Of a stretch of 24,864 nucleotides of DNA, positions 1,948 through 24,864 are shown in pieces. The notes beneath the pieces were generated by a model. That model saw nothing but the letters and a program-made list of their open reading frames with translations, did no database searches and was not told the DNA's origin. This DNA is from a virus. The position numbers and the translations under genes are program-made. Positions within the stretch are counted from its first letter, which is position 1, and each line of letters begins with the position of its first letter. The DNA lies in IMG/VR virus record IMGVR_UViG_3300022689_000113, positions 1 to 24,864 of that record. The stretch is one strand, 5' to 3'.

Positions 1948-2703
1948 ATGATTAAAAGTATTGAGTTTGTTGATGGGTTCCCAATGGAGCTATATAAAGA
2001 TATTCCTAAAAAGTTTAACTTTACGGATGGTTTAAATTGCGCATTTGGAACGAATGGTTGTGGAAAATCTGTGGCTTTAAAATTTCTTAAAGCTTATTGT
2101 TCAATACCTGTAGCTGGTTGGACCACATTAGTTGATCCAAAAATGCTTTCGCCAGACCCACTTCCACATGGGTACAGGGCATTTACACCAGATAAGCTTC
2201 CAGCTATTGTAGATTGGGATGGTACACCAGTTTTTTATAATTCTGGCGATATTGCAGATTCTAATGTGTGGTTTTATCAAAAGGATGGTACTTCTGAAGA
2301 TGGTTTATCTACAGAAGCTGAACGTTTTCAGGCTATGATTGATAAGCCATCTTCGGGACAATACAGATTGAAGAAAATTAATAAAATGTTGAGTGTTGTT
2401 GGTAACCCACCCGCTCTTAAACCTAATCCTAAGCTTGGGGACGTTAAAGATCAACTAGAATATATGGAATCTTTACATAAAGATGGTAAAATTACCCTAC
2501 TATTAGATGAACCAGAACGTTCTCTTAGTCTACCAAAGCAGAAAAAGCTTTTAGATGTTCTTTTAGATTTTTCTGATAAATTTCAAATAATTATTGCTTG
2601 CCATTCACCTTTTATTTTAAGTTTACCAAGAGATAAAGTTAATTTTATTGAGATTCAACCTAATTATTTAGATGAATGTGACAAGTTATTTAATTTCAAT
2701 TGA
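1948..2703 (+). CDS. ABC-type AAA ATPase, single compact domain
   Basis: The protein has a full ABC/SMC-style ATP site. Walker A is GTNGCGKS at residues 34-41. A signature-like SSGQ lies at 135-138. Walker B is ITLLLDEPE at 182-190, with catalytic E188. The switch histidine is H219 in IIACHSPFIL. At 251 residues there is no room for the long coiled coils of SMC or gp46 proteins, nor a TOPRIM nuclease as in OLD proteins. It resembles the AAA_21-type ATPases often found as lone phage proteins. Such proteins work as dimers on DNA or RNA, or drive a partner; no partner is identified, though the unknown genes on either side are candidates. It is not a membrane transporter, since no permease is nearby. 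Confidence 0.75.
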   Translation: MIKSIEFVDGFPMELYKDIPKKFNFTDGLNCAFGTNGCGKSVALKFLKAYCSIPVAGWTTLVDPKMLSPDPLPHGYRAFTPDKLPAIVDWDGTPVFYNSGDIADSNVWFYQKDGTSEDGLSTEAERFQAMIDKPSSGQYRLKKINKMLSVVGNPPALKPNPKLGDVKDQLEYMESLHKDGKITLLLDEPERSLSLPKQKKLLDVLLDFSDKFQIIIACHSPFILSLPRDKVNFIEIQPNYLDECDKLFNFN

Positions 2704-2740
2704 ATATAACAGTTCCATCATATTATTGTTCTAGTTTATT

Positions 2741-2770
2741 ATCAACCTCGTTAATTATAATGAGGTTGAT
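2741..2770 (+). promoter_or_regulatory. Hairpin over the start codon at 2760
   Basis: ATCAACCTC at 2741-2749 and GAGGTTGAT at 2762-2770 are perfect 9-base inverted repeats around a 12-base AT loop. The ATG of the next gene is at 2760-2762, so its G is in the stem and the AT is in the loop. It could occlude the start codon as a translational operator, as with T4 gp43. No U-tract follows, so it is not an obvious terminator. Confidence 0.45.
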
Positions 2771-2957
2771 AATTGATACAAATAACGTTATAACAACTTC
2801 TGATAAACTTTTTCGTTATTTTTTTCTTGAAAAAAGATTCCTTTTCGATTATGATTACCCTAGATACATTAAAGCTGAATTAGAAAATAGGCTTAGGCTT
2901 CGTATAGTTAAAAATACAGATGGTAATATAACATTTAGCATGGTAGATAATTTGTGA
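2760..2957 (+). CDS. Small hypothetical protein (65 aa)
   Basis: This is an open frame between the ATPase and the repeat protein. A TTG at 2700 would give 85 residues. I prefer the ATG at 2760, because it has the A/T-rich start context of its neighbours and because the extra residues encoded by 2700-2759 look poor. The 65-residue product begins MRLIIDTNN and is rich in aromatic and basic residues. No domain is recognised. Its start lies in a 9-bp hairpin (2741-2770), which may control translation. It ends in a GTGA overlap with the next gene. The tight packing supports a real gene, but short length and lack of homology keep confidence moderate. Confidence 0.45.
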   Translation: MRLIIDTNNVITTSDKLFRYFFLEKRFLFDYDYPRYIKAELENRLRLRIVKNTDGNITFSMVDNL

Positions 2958-3367
2958 TATTTAATATAAAAGAAAAAGATGAATATAGTGGTGAGGAATG
3001 GTCTCGTTTACTAATCAACCAACCACAATTCTCAATACATTGTGACTGGGTAAAATTATGGGGTTGGGATTGGTCTTATTTACTAAGCAAACAACCACAA
3101 TTCTCAGTTCATTGTGATTGGGAAAAGTTAGGGGGTAGGGATTGGGATCGTTTACTAAGCAAACAACCACAATTCTCAGTTCATTGTGGTTGGGAAAAGT
3201 TAAGTGGTTGGGATTGGGCTCGTTTACTAAGCAAACAACCACAATTCTCAGTTCATTGTGACTGGTATAAATTAGATGGTGATGATTGGGATGATTGGGG
3301 TGATTGGGATGATTCACTAATAGAATATCCAAAAACATTTAAATATATGTTTAAAAATGAAAATTAA
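2954..3367 (+). CDS. Tryptophan-rich tandem-repeat protein (24-residue WDW repeats)
   Basis: The 137-residue protein is built of four consecutive 24-residue units (residues 17-40, 41-64, 65-88 and 89-112). Each reads roughly xRLLSKQPQFSxHCDWxKLxGxDW, and a degenerate acidic partial unit (DDWGDWDD) follows. Leucine, proline, cysteine and tryptophan positions are kept in all four. It resembles repeat proteins I associate with gut bacteria and their phages, of unknown function; a binding solenoid is the natural guess. It starts at GTG 2954 in a GTGA overlap and runs 11 bases into the helicase gene, so it is co-translated with the replication genes. No signal peptide is present. Function is unknown. 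Confidence 0.65.
   Translation: MIFNIKEKDEYSGEEWSRLLINQPQFSIHCDWVKLWGWDWSYLLSKQPQFSVHCDWEKLGGRDWDRLLSKQPQFSVHCGWEKLSGWDWARLLSKQPQFSVHCDWYKLDGDDWDDWGDWDDSLIEYPKTFKYMFKNEN
3002..3289 (+). repeat. 72-bp tandem repeat, four units, inside the WDW-repeat gene
   Basis: Units lie at 3002-3073, 3074-3145, 3146-3217 and 3218-3289. The core TACTAAGCAAACAACCACAA and what follows is almost identical in units 2 to 4; unit 1 has diverged. High identity at the DNA level, not just protein, implies recent duplication or gene conversion. Copy number is likely to vary between relatives. Confidence 0.85.
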
Positions 3368-4700
3368 CGAAGATTTTTTAGAAAAGACGATTTTATTCCA
3401 ATGTATTAAGAATGAATATTATTTTAGCAGTGTTATAGATCACATTGACCTTAAATATTTTTCAGATACATCGGTAATTACAATATTTAGGAAAATTCTC
3501 AGTTATTATAGAGAATATAAGAAGCATCCTAATCTTTCTGAGATTAAAATGATGTTAACATCGGATGATGATACACGAGCGTTTGTTGATGTGTTAAATT
3601 CATTTAGAGGTTTAGACACAGATGTTGATATTGATATTTTGATTTCTCAAACTGAAACGTTTGTTAGAGAAAAGGGTATTATTTCAACAATTCTTGATGT
3701 TGGATCAAGATTTGATGAATTAGAACATTCAGAAATTGCTCAACGAATACAAGATGCTTGTAGTGTTTCAATTATAACTGATATTGGGTTTGATTATTTT
3801 GAGGGGTTGGATAAACATATCGAATGGTTAAAGACACCACAACCTAAAATATCAACAGGTTTTTCATTTTATGATGAAAAATTGGGTGGTGGTTTTAATA
3901 AGAACGGTAGAGCTTTATATATATGGATGGGCGGCACCAATTCTGGTAAGAGTATGCTATTAGGCAATCTTGCTACAAATTGTTTAAGACAGAATCTATG
4001 CTTACCTATTATTTCACTAGAAATGGATGAGCAATTGTATGCTCAGCGTATTTCGTGTAATTTAACATCTATTGAATTTTCCCAATTAAAGAATGAAGAG
4101 GAAAGATTTAGAAAACAAATTAAGAAATTACGTGATGATAATCCTAATGCATCGCTTATTTTAAAAGAATTTCCGCCAGGAAAGTTAACCGTTAATCAAT
4201 TAGATTCGTATCTTGGTCAGCTTAAAAAGAGCGGTAAGAAATTTGATATTGTATTCTTGGATTATATTACTTTAATGCGTTCTACTAATACAAACGGTTT
4301 ATATGAGGCTGGCAAGAGATTGGCTGAGGATGTTAGGGCATTATCATATAAGTACAATGTATCGTTTGTTTCAGTTATACAAGCAAATAGGAGTGGGGTT
4401 TCGGGAAATCAACCTAAGCTTGACAATACATCTGAATCTATGGGTATAGCGCATACATCAGACTTTATGGCATCTATATGGCGGGAAGAAGAGGATGCAG
4501 AGACAAATACGATTAGAACAGGTATAATCAAGAATCGTATAGGTGAAAATTTCGGTACAAAAATGTTAGAACTTGATAATTACCTAAGAATTAGAGAGGT
4601 TGATGATATTTTTGACGATGATGCTAAACAAATGAATGATCAAATAAAAAATCAAATTGAAACGCTTGCTGAATCTAATTTATCGAATATAATAAATTAA
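3357..4700 (+). CDS. 41: Replicative DNA helicase, DnaB family (T4 gp41-like)
   Basis: This is the ring helicase that unwinds the fork on the lagging strand and recruits primase. The N-terminal ~150 residues are a helical domain. The RecA-like motor follows, with Walker A GGTNSGKS at 192-199, the catalytic-glutamate motif SLEMDE (E222), Walker B FDIVFLDY (D302) and the QANR sensor at 342-345. The DnaB-family segment with ARxSxxMGIAHTSDF-like spacing lies near 355-370. At 447 residues it is slightly shorter than T4 gp41 (475). The start ATG overlaps the repeat-protein gene by 11 bases. Partners in the window are the gp59-like loader (5773) and the gp61-like primase (11603). The assignment is firm. 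Confidence 0.92.
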   Translation: MKINEDFLEKTILFQCIKNEYYFSSVIDHIDLKYFSDTSVITIFRKILSYYREYKKHPNLSEIKMMLTSDDDTRAFVDVLNSFRGLDTDVDIDILISQTETFVREKGIISTILDVGSRFDELEHSEIAQRIQDACSVSIITDIGFDYFEGLDKHIEWLKTPQPKISTGFSFYDEKLGGGFNKNGRALYIWMGGTNSGKSMLLGNLATNCLRQNLCLPIISLEMDEQLYAQRISCNLTSIEFSQLKNEEERFRKQIKKLRDDNPNASLILKEFPPGKLTVNQLDSYLGQLKKSGKKFDIVFLDYITLMRSTNTNGLYEAGKRLAEDVRALSYKYNVSFVSVIQANRSGVSGNQPKLDNTSESMGIAHTSDFMASIWREEEDAETNTIRTGIIKNRIGENFGTKMLELDNYLRIREVDDIFDDDAKQMNDQIKNQIETLAESNLSNIIN

Positions 4701-9532: not shown

Positions 9533-10519
9533 ATGGATGGTAAAAAAATATTAATGACTGGTGGATTTGGATTTATTGGTTCAAACTTTATAAATTATCT
9601 TATTGACAATTATGATAATTTCAAGCTTCTTAATTTAGATTATAAGGGTGTTGGATCAAATATCAAAAATGTAAAGGATTGTCGTACAAAATATCAAGAA
9701 ATATATCATATTGATATTGATATTTCTTTAAATTTTGTTAAAAATAGGGAGATTGAAAAGCTACCATTTGATTATTTGTTTAATTTTGCAGCAGAGAGTC
9801 ATGTAGACAGGTCTATTTCGACACCTGAGCCATTTATATACTCAAATGTTATGGGAGTTATGCAAATGCTTGAACTATCCCGAAAAATGGGTGTAGAGAG
9901 GGTCATTCATGTTAGTACAGATGAAGTTGTGGGGTCTGTTAATAAACCAGCTAAAGAAACAGCTAAATATAATCCATCATCTATATATTCTGCAACAAAA
10001 GCATCATCTGAAATGATAGTAAATGCATATATTAAAATGTATGGGATGGATGTTGTTATAACTAGATGTGCCAATAATTATGGTAAGAATCAATATGAAG
10101 ATAAATTGATACCAAAAGTTATTACAAACGCTTTAGTGGGTGATGATATACCTGTATATGATAAGGGCGAGCAAATTAGAGAGTGGGTTCATGTTGATGA
10201 CCATGTAAAGGATATTATAACAGTCGCTAAACATGGAAAATCAGGACAAATTTACAATGTTGGTGGTGGATATCCAATGTCAAATATAGATTTAGTTAAA
10301 AAAATCTTAGATATTTTAGGTAAATCAGATGATATTATAAAATTTGTTCCAAATGCGAGACTTGGGCATGATTTTAAATATTCTATAGATATATCAAAGC
10401 TTAATAAGCTTAAAAATAAATATAATATTCCAATTATTGATAATAATGCGGATTATTTTACAGAAAAATTAAAAGAGACTATTAAATATTATGAAGAATC
10501 TTATAATAGACGGGGGTAA
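9533..10519 (+). CDS. NAD-dependent sugar-nucleotide dehydratase/epimerase (RmlB-like SDR)
   Basis: An extended short-chain dehydrogenase of 328 residues with all catalytic marks. The NAD-binding loop is TGGFGFIG (9-16). FAAESHVDRSI at 85-95 is typical of dTDP-glucose 4,6-dehydratases. STDEVVG at 128-134 keeps the Thr-Asp-Glu of the dehydratases. The YSATK motif gives Y152 and K156, and RCANNYG and REWVHVDDH follow. The likely reaction is oxidation, 4,6-dehydration and reduction of a nucleotide-linked hexose in the cytoplasm, giving a 4-keto-6-deoxy sugar. Related epimerases cannot be excluded. It could feed the glycosyltransferase at 584. There are 183 bases of poorly coding DNA before it. 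Its last 29 bases overlap the RNase H gene. Confidence 0.85.
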   Translation: MDGKKILMTGGFGFIGSNFINYLIDNYDNFKLLNLDYKGVGSNIKNVKDCRTKYQEIYHIDIDISLNFVKNREIEKLPFDYLFNFAAESHVDRSISTPEPFIYSNVMGVMQMLELSRKMGVERVIHVSTDEVVGSVNKPAKETAKYNPSSIYSATKASSEMIVNAYIKMYGMDVVITRCANNYGKNQYEDKLIPKVITNALVGDDIPVYDKGEQIREWVHVDDHVKDIITVAKHGKSGQIYNVGGGYPMSNIDLVKKILDILGKSDDIIKFVPNARLGHDFKYSIDISKLNKLKNKYNIPIIDNNADYFTEKLKETIKYYEESYNRRG

Positions 10520-14059: not shown

Positions 14060-14464
14060 ATGATAGTAAATATTTTAATATTATTAGGATTCCCTGCTGT
14101 TTTTGCAGGTATTGGTTTTTTGTTTGGGTATAATCCATTAGAGTGGTTTGCTGTTTCAGCAGTAGCTCAGTTTATTTTTATATATACATTTACATTAACA
14201 TTAAGAACTATAGCAACACTTAAATTGAATCGGATGGAGATTGATAGGTTAAACGCTATGGACGCGAATAAGGTTAGTATGAAATGTTCTGTATGTAATG
14301 AACCACATATTGCAGTGGTTAAATGGGGTGAAAACAATGAATTTAGGTGTGAAAGGTGTAAATCACTAAATCAAATTGATGTTAATATTACAAACCACCA
14401 AAGAACTGAGATTGTTGAAGGTTTGATAACGGAGGATATTGTACAAAATTTAAATAAAGAATGA
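14060..14464 (+). CDS. Two-helix membrane protein with a zinc ribbon
   Basis: The 134-residue protein has hydrophobic helices at about 2-23 and 28-50. A basic linker and a cytoplasmic-type zinc ribbon follow: CSVC at 76-79 and CERC at 97-100, 17 residues apart. A helical tail follows. By the positive-inside rule the ribbon side (KLNR after helix 2) is cytoplasmic. Its TTGACA promoter suggests early or middle expression, unlike the late gene before it. Possible jobs include tethering a DNA or protein partner to the inner membrane or superinfection exclusion, but none is shown by the sequence. It starts an operon with the next two genes. Confidence 0.62.
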   Translation: MIVNILILLGFPAVFAGIGFLFGYNPLEWFAVSAVAQFIFIYTFTLTLRTIATLKLNRMEIDRLNAMDANKVSMKCSVCNEPHIAVVKWGENNEFRCERCKSLNQIDVNITNHQRTEIVEGLITEDIVQNLNKE

Positions 14465-23388: not shown

Positions 23389-24864
23389 ATGAGGAGAAAA
23401 TTAACAACAGAAATTTTTATAGAACGTGCAAAATCAATACATTGTGGAAAATATGATTATTCTAAGACAATATATAGTAAAATGCATGATAAAATTGTTA
23501 TCATATGCCCAATACATGGTGAATTTGAACAAAAGGCGTGTAACCATATATCGAAATTAGCCCAAGGTTGTCCAAAATGTAGAGAGAAGAGAATATCAGA
23601 AAGCAAAATAAAAAATAAAGCTATTGATATTATCCATAGATTTAAAAAAATACATGGTGACAAATATGATTACAATAACGTTAATTATACCCATAGTAAA
23701 AATATTGTTGAAATTATTTGTCCAGAACATGGTTCTTTTTTTCAAACCCCAAATCATCATTTAAAAGGTCGTGGGTGCCCAGAATGTGGGAAAAAATATA
23801 GATGGAAAAATAGAGATGGTTTAGTAAGTGAAGATATTTTTATAAAAAGATCAACGAGAAAACATAATGGGAAGTATGATTATTCTAATGTTATTTTTAA
23901 TAGCATGAAAGAAAAGGTTGAAATTATATGTCCCAAACATGGATCATTTTGGCAAATGCCGCATAATCATATGTATTTTGGTGATAATTGTCCGAAATGT
24001 GCAAATAATTATTCTTCCTATGAGCAAACTATAGAAGATTATATAATAAAAAAGAAAATAAAATATACTAGTAAGAATAAATCAAAAATCAAACCATATG
24101 AGCTTGATTTCTACCTCCCTGATTATAACATTGCAATTGAAGTTAATGGTATATATTGGCACTCTGAATTAAAAGGAAAAGACAAGAACTATCATCTTAA
24201 TAAAACTAAAGCTTGTTTAGATAAGGGAATTAAACTTATTCATATAAACGAAAATGAATTTATTAATTCTTTACCTATAATCAAATCAAAATTAAATTCT
24301 ATTCTTGGTATTAATAAAAGGAAAATTCATGGTAGAAAATGTGAAGTTAAAGAGATAGATACATCTTTAAAATCTAAGTTCTTAAATAAATATCATCTTC
24401 AAGGAAATGATAAAGCATCGGTTAAATTAGGGTTGTTTTATAATAATAAGTTAGTTTCTGTTATGACATTTTGTAAACGTAGAATAGCTATGGGTAAGAA
24501 AAGTAGTGAAGAGGGTGAATGGGAACTTTCTAGATACTGTGGTAATTTCCATTTTTATGTTATAGGTGGAGCTTCTAAGCTTCTAAAATATTTTGAAAGG
24601 AATTATAAACCATCTAAAATCGTAACTTATGCAGATAAAAGATGGTCAACTGGAGATTTATATTTTAATTTAGGCTTTACTCATACCCATGACAGTGCTC
24701 CTAATTACTGGTATTTTAAAAATAATTATATCAAAACAGGTGAAATATATCACCGTTTCAATTTCAGAAAATCTGAACTACCCAAAAAACTAGATACATT
24801 TGACCCCAATAAAACAGAATGGGAAAATATGGTTGATAATGGATGGAATAGAATTTGGGATTGT
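23389..24864 (+). CDS. Free-standing homing endonuclease, Vsr-like, with three zinc modules (3' end cut by window)
   Basis: An open frame of 492 codons runs off the right edge, probably close to its end (GWNRIWDC usually precedes the last few residues). Three ~70-residue modules each have KYDYS, then CPxHGxF and CPxC: C40/H43 with C61/C64, C111/H114 with C130/C133, and C181/H184 with C201/C204. A Vsr/EDxHD-type PD-(D/E)XK nuclease follows: SYEQ (E212), ELDFYLPDY (D240) and AIEVNGIYWH (E251). The C-terminal 190 residues (GLFYNNKLVSVMTF ... YADKRWSTGDLYFNLGF) have a GNAT-like pattern of unknown role. Such genes cut related phage genomes at a neighbouring site and are copied in by repair. Its own promoter and the terminator before it fit an inserted selfish gene. 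Confidence 0.82.
   Translation, partial: MRRKLTTEIFIERAKSIHCGKYDYSKTIYSKMHDKIVIICPIHGEFEQKACNHISKLAQGCPKCREKRISESKIKNKAIDIIHRFKKIHGDKYDYNNVNYTHSKNIVEIICPEHGSFFQTPNHHLKGRGCPECGKKYRWKNRDGLVSEDIFIKRSTRKHNGKYDYSNVIFNSMKEKVEIICPKHGSFWQMPHNHMYFGDNCPKCANNYSSYEQTIEDYIIKKKIKYTSKNKSKIKPYELDFYLPDYNIAIEVNGIYWHSELKGKDKNYHLNKTKACLDKGIKLIHINENEFINSLPIIKSKLNSILGINKRKIHGRKCEVKEIDTSLKSKFLNKYHLQGNDKASVKLGLFYNNKLVSVMTFCKRRIAMGKKSSEEGEWELSRYCGNFHFYVIGGASKLLKYFERNYKPSKIVTYADKRWSTGDLYFNLGFTHTHDSAPNYWYFKNNYIKTGEIYHRFNFRKSELPKKLDTFDPNKTEWENMVDNGWNRIWDC

Follow-up and report, generated by a model that had tools for sequence, protein, structure and literature searches.

A WDW tandem-repeat gene beside the replicative helicase of a virus, and the same repeat at the C-terminus of bacterial STAND proteins

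What does a gene made almost entirely of short tandem repeats do directly in front of a viral replicative helicase? The question is raised by a gene in the window, by which we mean the whole 24,864-nt stretch analysed here (IMG/VR record IMGVR_UViG_3300022689_000113). A preliminary description of this DNA had placed the gene in a replication operon and had suggested, from the similarity of its repeats, a recently expanded array of the kind seen in variable binding proteins that track a changing partner. We followed the repeat through phages and bacterial genomes, through structure prediction and through the proteins in which it recurs. We favour the answer that it encodes an accessory protein with a binding function, which may serve in virus-host conflict.

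The repeat gene and its junction

The features of the replication block that bear on the question are the following:

1948..2703, plus strand: AAA ATPase (Pfam AAA_21), which tblastn places upstream of the helicase gene in all 8 close relatives
2700..2957, plus strand: 85-aa ORF upstream of the WDW gene, with an ortholog (45% identity) in L002 only, where it overlaps the helicase directly
2954..3367, plus strand: WDW repeat gene, 137 aa, GTG start, from the ORF and its sequence; 4 units, score 160.7 with a unit HMM whose seed included these units
2954..2995, plus strand: N-terminal 14 residues ahead of unit 1, resembling the start of the L010 protein (alignment A2)
2996..3067, plus strand: repeat unit 1, EWSRLLINQPQFSIHCDWVKLWGW
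3068..3139, plus strand: repeat unit 2, DWSYLLSKQPQFSVHCDWEKLGGR
3140..3211, plus strand: repeat unit 3, DWDRLLSKQPQFSVHCGWEKLSGW
3212..3283, plus strand: repeat unit 4, DWARLLSKQPQFSVHCDWYKLDGD
3284..3364, plus strand: degenerate fifth unit or C-terminal cap, with a 9-bp mini-repeat (Tandem Repeats Finder, 3281-3314) and low model confidence (pLDDT 49-64)
3357..4700, plus strand: DnaB-type replicative helicase (Pfam DnaB_C, E 2.2e-21; phrog_19, E 4.9e-73)

The tandem repeats themselves are beyond doubt: four 72-bp units, each of 24 residues, occupy 2996-3283 and are followed by the degenerate fifth. Tandem Repeats Finder reports 2995-3274 with period 72, 3.9 copies and a score of 406, the runner-up in the whole window scoring 71, and the lag-72 self-match within the array reaches 182 of 208 positions, against 94 in the best of 60 order-1 Markov shuffles. 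The GTG start is supported by its alignment with the ATG start of the related protein in the virus record L010 (MEFELNKKDEY / MIFNIKEKDEY). It overlaps the stop of the preceding ORF as GTGA (4 bp), and the 3' end of the gene shares 11 bp with the helicase start (ATG at 3357). The overlaps that the preliminary description had read as translational coupling on both sides are thus present at both ends, and they suggest coupling to both neighbours. The AAA ATPase at 1948-2703 also shows partial matches to the PADLOC models AriA, PtuA and GajA (best E 4.7e-12).

The conservation of this arrangement was judged from the 34 loci returned by a helicase search. Eight close relatives have helicases 59-70% identical to that of the window (L002, L003, L004, L005, L006, L008, L009 and L059); they are not independent, L003/L004 and L006/L009 being near-copies, and a ninth, L007, was left out at the junction since its record begins inside the helicase gene. 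All eight carry the ATPase upstream of the helicase and none has a WDW gene between the two (tblastn). The WDW profile matched L010, L011 and L058 only among 37 virus records, possibly fragments, and gave no match in the records of the close relatives, some of which are fragments. Because the L002 ortholog of the 2700-2957 ORF overlaps the helicase directly, the WDW gene counts as an addition to this junction in the window. Judged by gene content, it is an accessory gene and not a conserved part of the replication machinery; the replication role implied by its placement in an operon found no support.

The closest phage copy sits elsewhere. L010 belongs to the same phage group, its capsid-like protein (we take the name "capsid" to be right for the L010 and L008 proteins) being 80% or 75% identical, in two comparisons, to that in the L008 record. 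The order in L010 is capsid gene, DUF723 gene, then a WDW gene with a similar N-terminus, cut by the contig end; in the L008 record, the stretch after the capsid gene gave no match to the L010 DUF723 protein, and no WDW match was found. We take DUF723-type proteins to be probable homing endonucleases. One of them seems to lie in the window as well, where an open frame at 23392-24864, running off the window end, is 63% identical over 495 columns to the L010 protein. A phage homing endonuclease has been described as amplifying anti-defence genes (PMC13096335), and a vehicle of that type is possible for the WDW gene, by analogy and from its position beside the DUF723 gene in L010.

Related proteins with a different N-terminal part occur in L011, L058 and L137, up to three per contig. 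L011:3-1343 and L058:125-2802 encode three and two proteins, respectively, in which an N-terminal part MKTFNTLEELHAEWE... precedes WDW repeats; those of L011 are adjacent. At L137:776-1369, a phage ORF adjoining the WDW gene carries a different W-rich repeat, DKWFDPEKFNWEYSYYLVVYCPQHF, with no Pfam match at E 0.01. A virus-labelled stretch, L135:1307-11053, holds a 14-unit WDW gene near type I restriction-modification-like genes (identified by eye) and a Fic gene (PF02661); this one example could be of host origin. L134 and L136, with one weak unit each, were left out of the WDW counts. Searching INPHARED phages with the window protein (tblastn) gave nothing at E 0.01, and a viral scan with the single window protein as query gave no confirmed match. 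Elsewhere in the window, a 134-aa ORF at 14060-14464 has a weak match to a Cas12f1-like TNB domain (E 0.0035, under the curated cut-off).

Variation among the units and the predicted fold

The four units had been described as near-identical at the DNA level. Over their whole length they are less alike than that, pairs sharing 79-89% of nucleotides (83-89% among units 2-4), and identity is complete in the core, where residues 5-16 of units 2-4 are identical at 36 of 36 nt, silent sites included. Amino-acid changes among these three units are restricted to codons 3, 4, 17, 19, 22 and 24, with one silent change in codon 20, and 19 of 24 residues agree in each pair. Moreover, mean DNA identity within the array is higher in the window (0.836) than in any other of the 35 arrays of the family (second 0.790). 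The identical silent sites and this top rank support the recent expansion that had been proposed, as expansion or as homogenisation.

The positions that change are those that vary in the family at large. In a set of 35 arrays with 258 units, variability among the 24 positions is highest at nine, namely 4, 24, 7, 8, 22, 3, 19, 15 and 17, and all six changed codons of window units 2-4 fall within them. The units entering the entropies were selected by a pattern that fixes positions 2, 5, 6, 10, 12, 18 and 21, and they include the four units of the window; the enrichment has P 0.009 over the 17 positions left free by the pattern, the fairer test, and P 0.0008 over all 24. The expectation of a variable binder is therefore borne out as far as the pattern of changes goes, units 2-4 differing at six codons drawn from the most variable positions. 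Between units pN is about equal to pS, over few sites, and diversifying selection is therefore only a possibility for the window array.

Some of this variation is shared with L010. Window unit 1 and L010 unit 2 have 25 identical bp, window unit 4 has a 15-bp run in common with the 3' half of the same L010 unit, and half-unit variants are common to both arrays in different order. The pattern fits exchange between units; it could also be old shared variation. By DNA, the units nearest to those of the window are from L010, and by protein some Lentisphaerae units (L018) are equally close or closer. Fresh capture of the gene from a bacterium found no support: its GC3 of 0.23 lies inside the range of 0.14-0.24 of the 16 window genes compared.

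AlphaFold2, run with 27 aligned sequences on the window protein alone among family members, predicts an alpha-solenoid (mean pLDDT 88.1, pTM 0.79). By ten-residue blocks, pLDDT is 95-98 for residues 11-100, 90 for 101-110 and 49-64 in the C-terminal part, so the fold prediction that the preliminary description had called for yields a confident model over the repeats. Within each 24-residue unit, the model places a helix of 10 residues, then one of 6 residues and a short turn. The variable positions sit on one face of the predicted long helix (periodicity P 0.0001), a regularity that is partly built in because the selection pattern fixes three of the nine positions. The structure libraries offered no clear known fold for the model: with PPR, the MgtE N-domain and DUF4116 compared as known alpha-repeat folds, the best Foldseek hits had E 1.0 in the PDB and E 0.13 in viral models (DUF4116-type), and the best VIA-align Z was 5.8. 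We do not claim a new fold. DUF4116 proteins are likewise made of alpha repeats and resemble the window protein weakly in fold (the E 0.13 hit of the viral structure library), but the Pfam scan of the window protein gave no DUF4116 match, and the resemblance may reflect a common arrangement.

The Pfam scan of the window protein found no family (best E 0.096), PHROGs gave weak matches alone (best E 0.01, to an entry of unknown function), a PDB sequence search returned 0 matches with the protein and one, at E 1.8, with the family profile, and PADLOC models, a library without anti-defence proteins, gave no match at E 0.01. The protein does fit the 24-residue unit DWxxLLxxQPQFxxxCDWxKLxG (alignments A3, A4) of what we call the WDW / QPQF family, which is defined in this analysis. 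Our scans found no Pfam or NCBIfam entry for the repeat, a literature search with the exact motif found no description, and a search by title and abstract found none describing it among the matches listed. As far as these searches reach, the WDW repeat family is undescribed.

The WDW family in bacteria and STAND proteins

A DNA pattern for QPQFxxxCDW recovered 46 stretches from GTDB genomes, several of them from one genome. The unit HMM found arrays in 34, and we took the other 12, in which it found none, as chance matches. By record title, 29 of the 34 are Lentisphaer-, Kiritimatiell- or Verrucomicrob-, four 'uncultured bacterium' and one Flavobacteriales. We then used a two-unit profile (E 1e-10) on genomes of three phyla, which we name from record titles. 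Among genomes of the G039 phylum (Lentisphaeria), 32 of 387 match, which is not an unbiased prevalence because 12 of these had been recognised as positive beforehand; in that of G062 (Flavobacteriales), 1 of 296 matches, namely G062 itself; and in that of G049 (Gammaproteobacteria), 0 of 299 match, in a sample without a known-positive genome and hence weak as a sign of absence. The window gene at 9533-10519, which we take to encode a dTDP-glucose dehydratase, was tried as a clue to the host. Its best matches score 254 bits in the G039 phylum (217 of 240 genomes match) and 264 bits in the G062 phylum (240 of 247); the host is not discriminated.

In bacteria, most WDW ORFs consist of repeats with short flanks and nothing else. 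Of 43 bacterial WDW ORFs, a part of which was scanned for domains, three (L012, L013 and L026) have a recognised partner domain, and none was recognised in L019, L021, L031, L050, L023, L051, L041 or L054. The neighbours of bacterial WDW genes (77 of 144 listed ORFs scanned) give no clear defence signal; among the matches listed, AAA_16 occurs in 5 and nSTAND3 in 2 of the 77 neighbours, and the scan is a weak test because the list covers 25 of the 77 matching families, with no background set for comparison.

The few proteins with partner domains are of a particular kind. L013 is a 1383-aa open frame with 16 units, TIR_2 above the Pfam cut-off and a sub-threshold match to the STAND-type model NF040586; L012 has 18 units, AlbA_2 above the cut-off, AAA_16 just under it and an NF040586 match; and L026 has 9 units and TIR_2, with no NTPase detected. 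In these proteins, TIR- or AlbA_2-STAND or, for L026, TIR without a detected NTPase, the WDW array is C-terminal. Further candidates are L123 (21 units) and L128 (10 units), which have no Pfam match and sub-threshold NF040586 matches, and L125, where L125:3796-6219 carries AAA_16 above the cut-off. Pfam detects no NTPase in L123, L128 or L125:2-1894; the STAND assignment, which is probable, draws for the first two on the sub-threshold NCBIfam match and A6, an alignment of the STAND cores of L012, L013, L123, L128 and L125, and for L125:2-1894 on A6. At L125:3796-7225, the NTPase part and the WDW array are in different frames, by an assembly error or in a pseudogene, and a second copy nearby is cut by the contig start.

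We searched a profile of A6 in 37 of the 45 genomes known to have WDW matches (a first set of 25 and 12 of 20 further ones) and obtained 15 matches in 6 of them, counted as 14 proteins; the other 31 genomes gave no match to this profile. Six of the 14 carry at least 10 WDW units, a result by construction because five are sources of A6 and the sixth was already known. Three are AlbA_2-type and carry weak WDW-like units, one or two each (HMM scores 13-29 against a cut-off of 35), ahead of long Sel1 arrays, three have TIR with TPR arrays, one has AlbA_2 with a C-terminus of no assigned family, and one is cut by a contig end. Pfam confirms Sel1, TPR and TIR_2 above the cut-off; AlbA_2 exceeds it in L142 and L147 and stays sub-threshold in L143 and L146. 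In L142, L143 and L146, the weak WDW-like units separate the NTPase core from the long run of Sel1 repeats, an order that would suit a swap of the sensor array. Some of the sibling STAND proteins with Sel1 or TPR arrays are in the same genome as WDW-bearing ones. Since Sel1, TPR and WDW arrays are found on the same kind of NTPase core, WDW is best seen as one of several exchangeable C-terminal arrays of one chassis.

In fungal NLRs, the C-terminal array occupies the sensor position, according to PMC12881547, and the architecture of the bacterial WDW-STAND proteins suggests that they too are immune receptors. They share with Avs anti-phage STANDs and other bacterial NLR-like systems a STAND core with a C-terminal sensor region (PMC12881547); unlike those systems, L012 and L013 have weak partial PADLOC matches only, to other models (PDC-S66, SAVED_TIR, PDC-S01), and the likeness is one of architecture alone. 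The phage protein stands apart from all of them. It has the same 24-aa repeat by profile as L012, L013, L123, L128 and the two L125 copies, but these combine an NTPase core, in some cut by a contig end or a frame change, with 10-21 units, whereas the phage protein is 4 units alone. Its 137 aa of repeats contain no STAND NTPase domain by Pfam and the unit HMM, and we do not class it as a receptor; what it has in common with STAND receptors with C-terminal repeats is the repeat type, as in L012 and L013, and not membership. The link to defence that the preliminary description had proposed to look for therefore exists in an indirect form only, through the occurrence of this repeat as a C-terminal array in TIR- or AlbA_2-bearing STAND proteins.

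Among documented cases, the nearest evolutionary parallel to the window array is, by analogy, the HNWD family of Podospora, whose repeats evolve in concert with four residues per repeat under diversifying selection, as PMC1805685 reports. Fungal NLRs have highly conserved C-terminal repeats of WD, ANK and TPR types (PMC1805685, PMC4986451 and PMC12881547). The bacterial WDW arrays are like them in holding the STAND sensor position, and the window array is like them in its uniform repeats, its variation at particular codons and its signs of unit exchange. The differences are as clear: WDW is a 24-aa alpha unit and not WD40, the phage protein has neither NTPase nor effector, and its units 2-4, agreeing at 19 of 24 residues, fall under the threshold for high internal conservation in PMC4986451, where repeats must be more than 85% identical across 100 aa or more. 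Diversifying selection in HNWD compares in the window with changes at six codons and pN about equal to pS, over few sites.

What the phage array may do

Taking these lines together, we give about an even chance to the reading in which the WDW gene, an accessory gene sitting at a variable junction in the replication block, codes for a small binding protein of alpha-solenoid type with a rapidly changing protein as its partner, likely in host-phage conflict. It is probably an accessory binding protein, and possibly one for virus-host conflict, because its repeat serves some immune-receptor-like proteins of bacteria as their presumed recognition end. In this model, the fixed residues of each unit would build the solenoid scaffold and the varying ones form a ligand-binding face, and exchange between units would keep the scaffold uniform while the contact residues change. 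The partner would itself change rapidly, most likely as a party to host-phage conflict, for example as a host defence protein or a ligand watched by a WDW-type sensor, and the phage array would bind or mask it during infection. A decoy or anti-defence role is plausible. The mobility of the gene, missing from the junction in 8 of 8 close relatives and at a different locus in L010, supports this reading. Against it count the prevalence of repeat-only proteins in bacteria, STAND profile matches in no more than 6 of 37 WDW-bearing genomes, the weak neighbour scan with its lack of a clear defence signal and the negative PADLOC search with the window protein.

A more modest account sees in the phage protein a copy of the repeat-only WDW protein common in bacteria, with the same role in the cell, structural or as an adaptor for instance, and no part in immunity or counter-immunity. 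The predominance of repeat-only ORFs with short flanks in bacteria, the 31 of 37 WDW genomes without a match to the STAND profile and the lack of a clear defence signal among neighbours all speak for it. It names no mechanism, however, and a changing partner accounts better for the six-codon variation and the mobility of the phage gene; we consider it doubtful. The overlaps at both ends of the gene, including that with the helicase, would suit a helicase adaptor or loader whose synthesis is translationally coupled to that of the helicase, but the relatives that keep helicase and ATPase (8 of 8) lack the gene at the junction, their records, possibly fragments, show no match, and the copy in L010 adjoins capsid and DUF723 genes, which leaves a replication accessory quite improbable. 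Slippage or recombination does yield short recent repeats, and the overall pN/pS between units is near 1, as a neutral or selfish expansion, without function and retained by chance, would predict; an open frame in an overlapping gene organisation, a 36-nt core conserved while six codons change, a family shared with other phages and bacteria and a confident fold make such an expansion highly improbable.

Whatever the phage protein does, the WDW family, with no Pfam or NCBIfam entry found and no PDB sequence match, holds the presumed sensor position in TIR- and AlbA_2-STAND proteins. With Sel1 or TPR siblings at the same position, the swapping of sensors among bacterial NLR-like proteins is open to direct test, and the phage WDW protein is a small candidate decoy, inhibitor or ligand-binding partner for these receptors. 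A bolder interpretation, which we think unlikely, would make WDW a sensor-repeat class, so far undescribed, that NLR-like receptors in Verrucomicrobiota-type bacteria can exchange for Sel1 and TPR on a TIR/AlbA_2-STAND chassis, and the free-standing, recombining arrays of phages mobile decoys or inhibitors of these receptors. If true, a receptor-mimic arms race would be written in one repeat.
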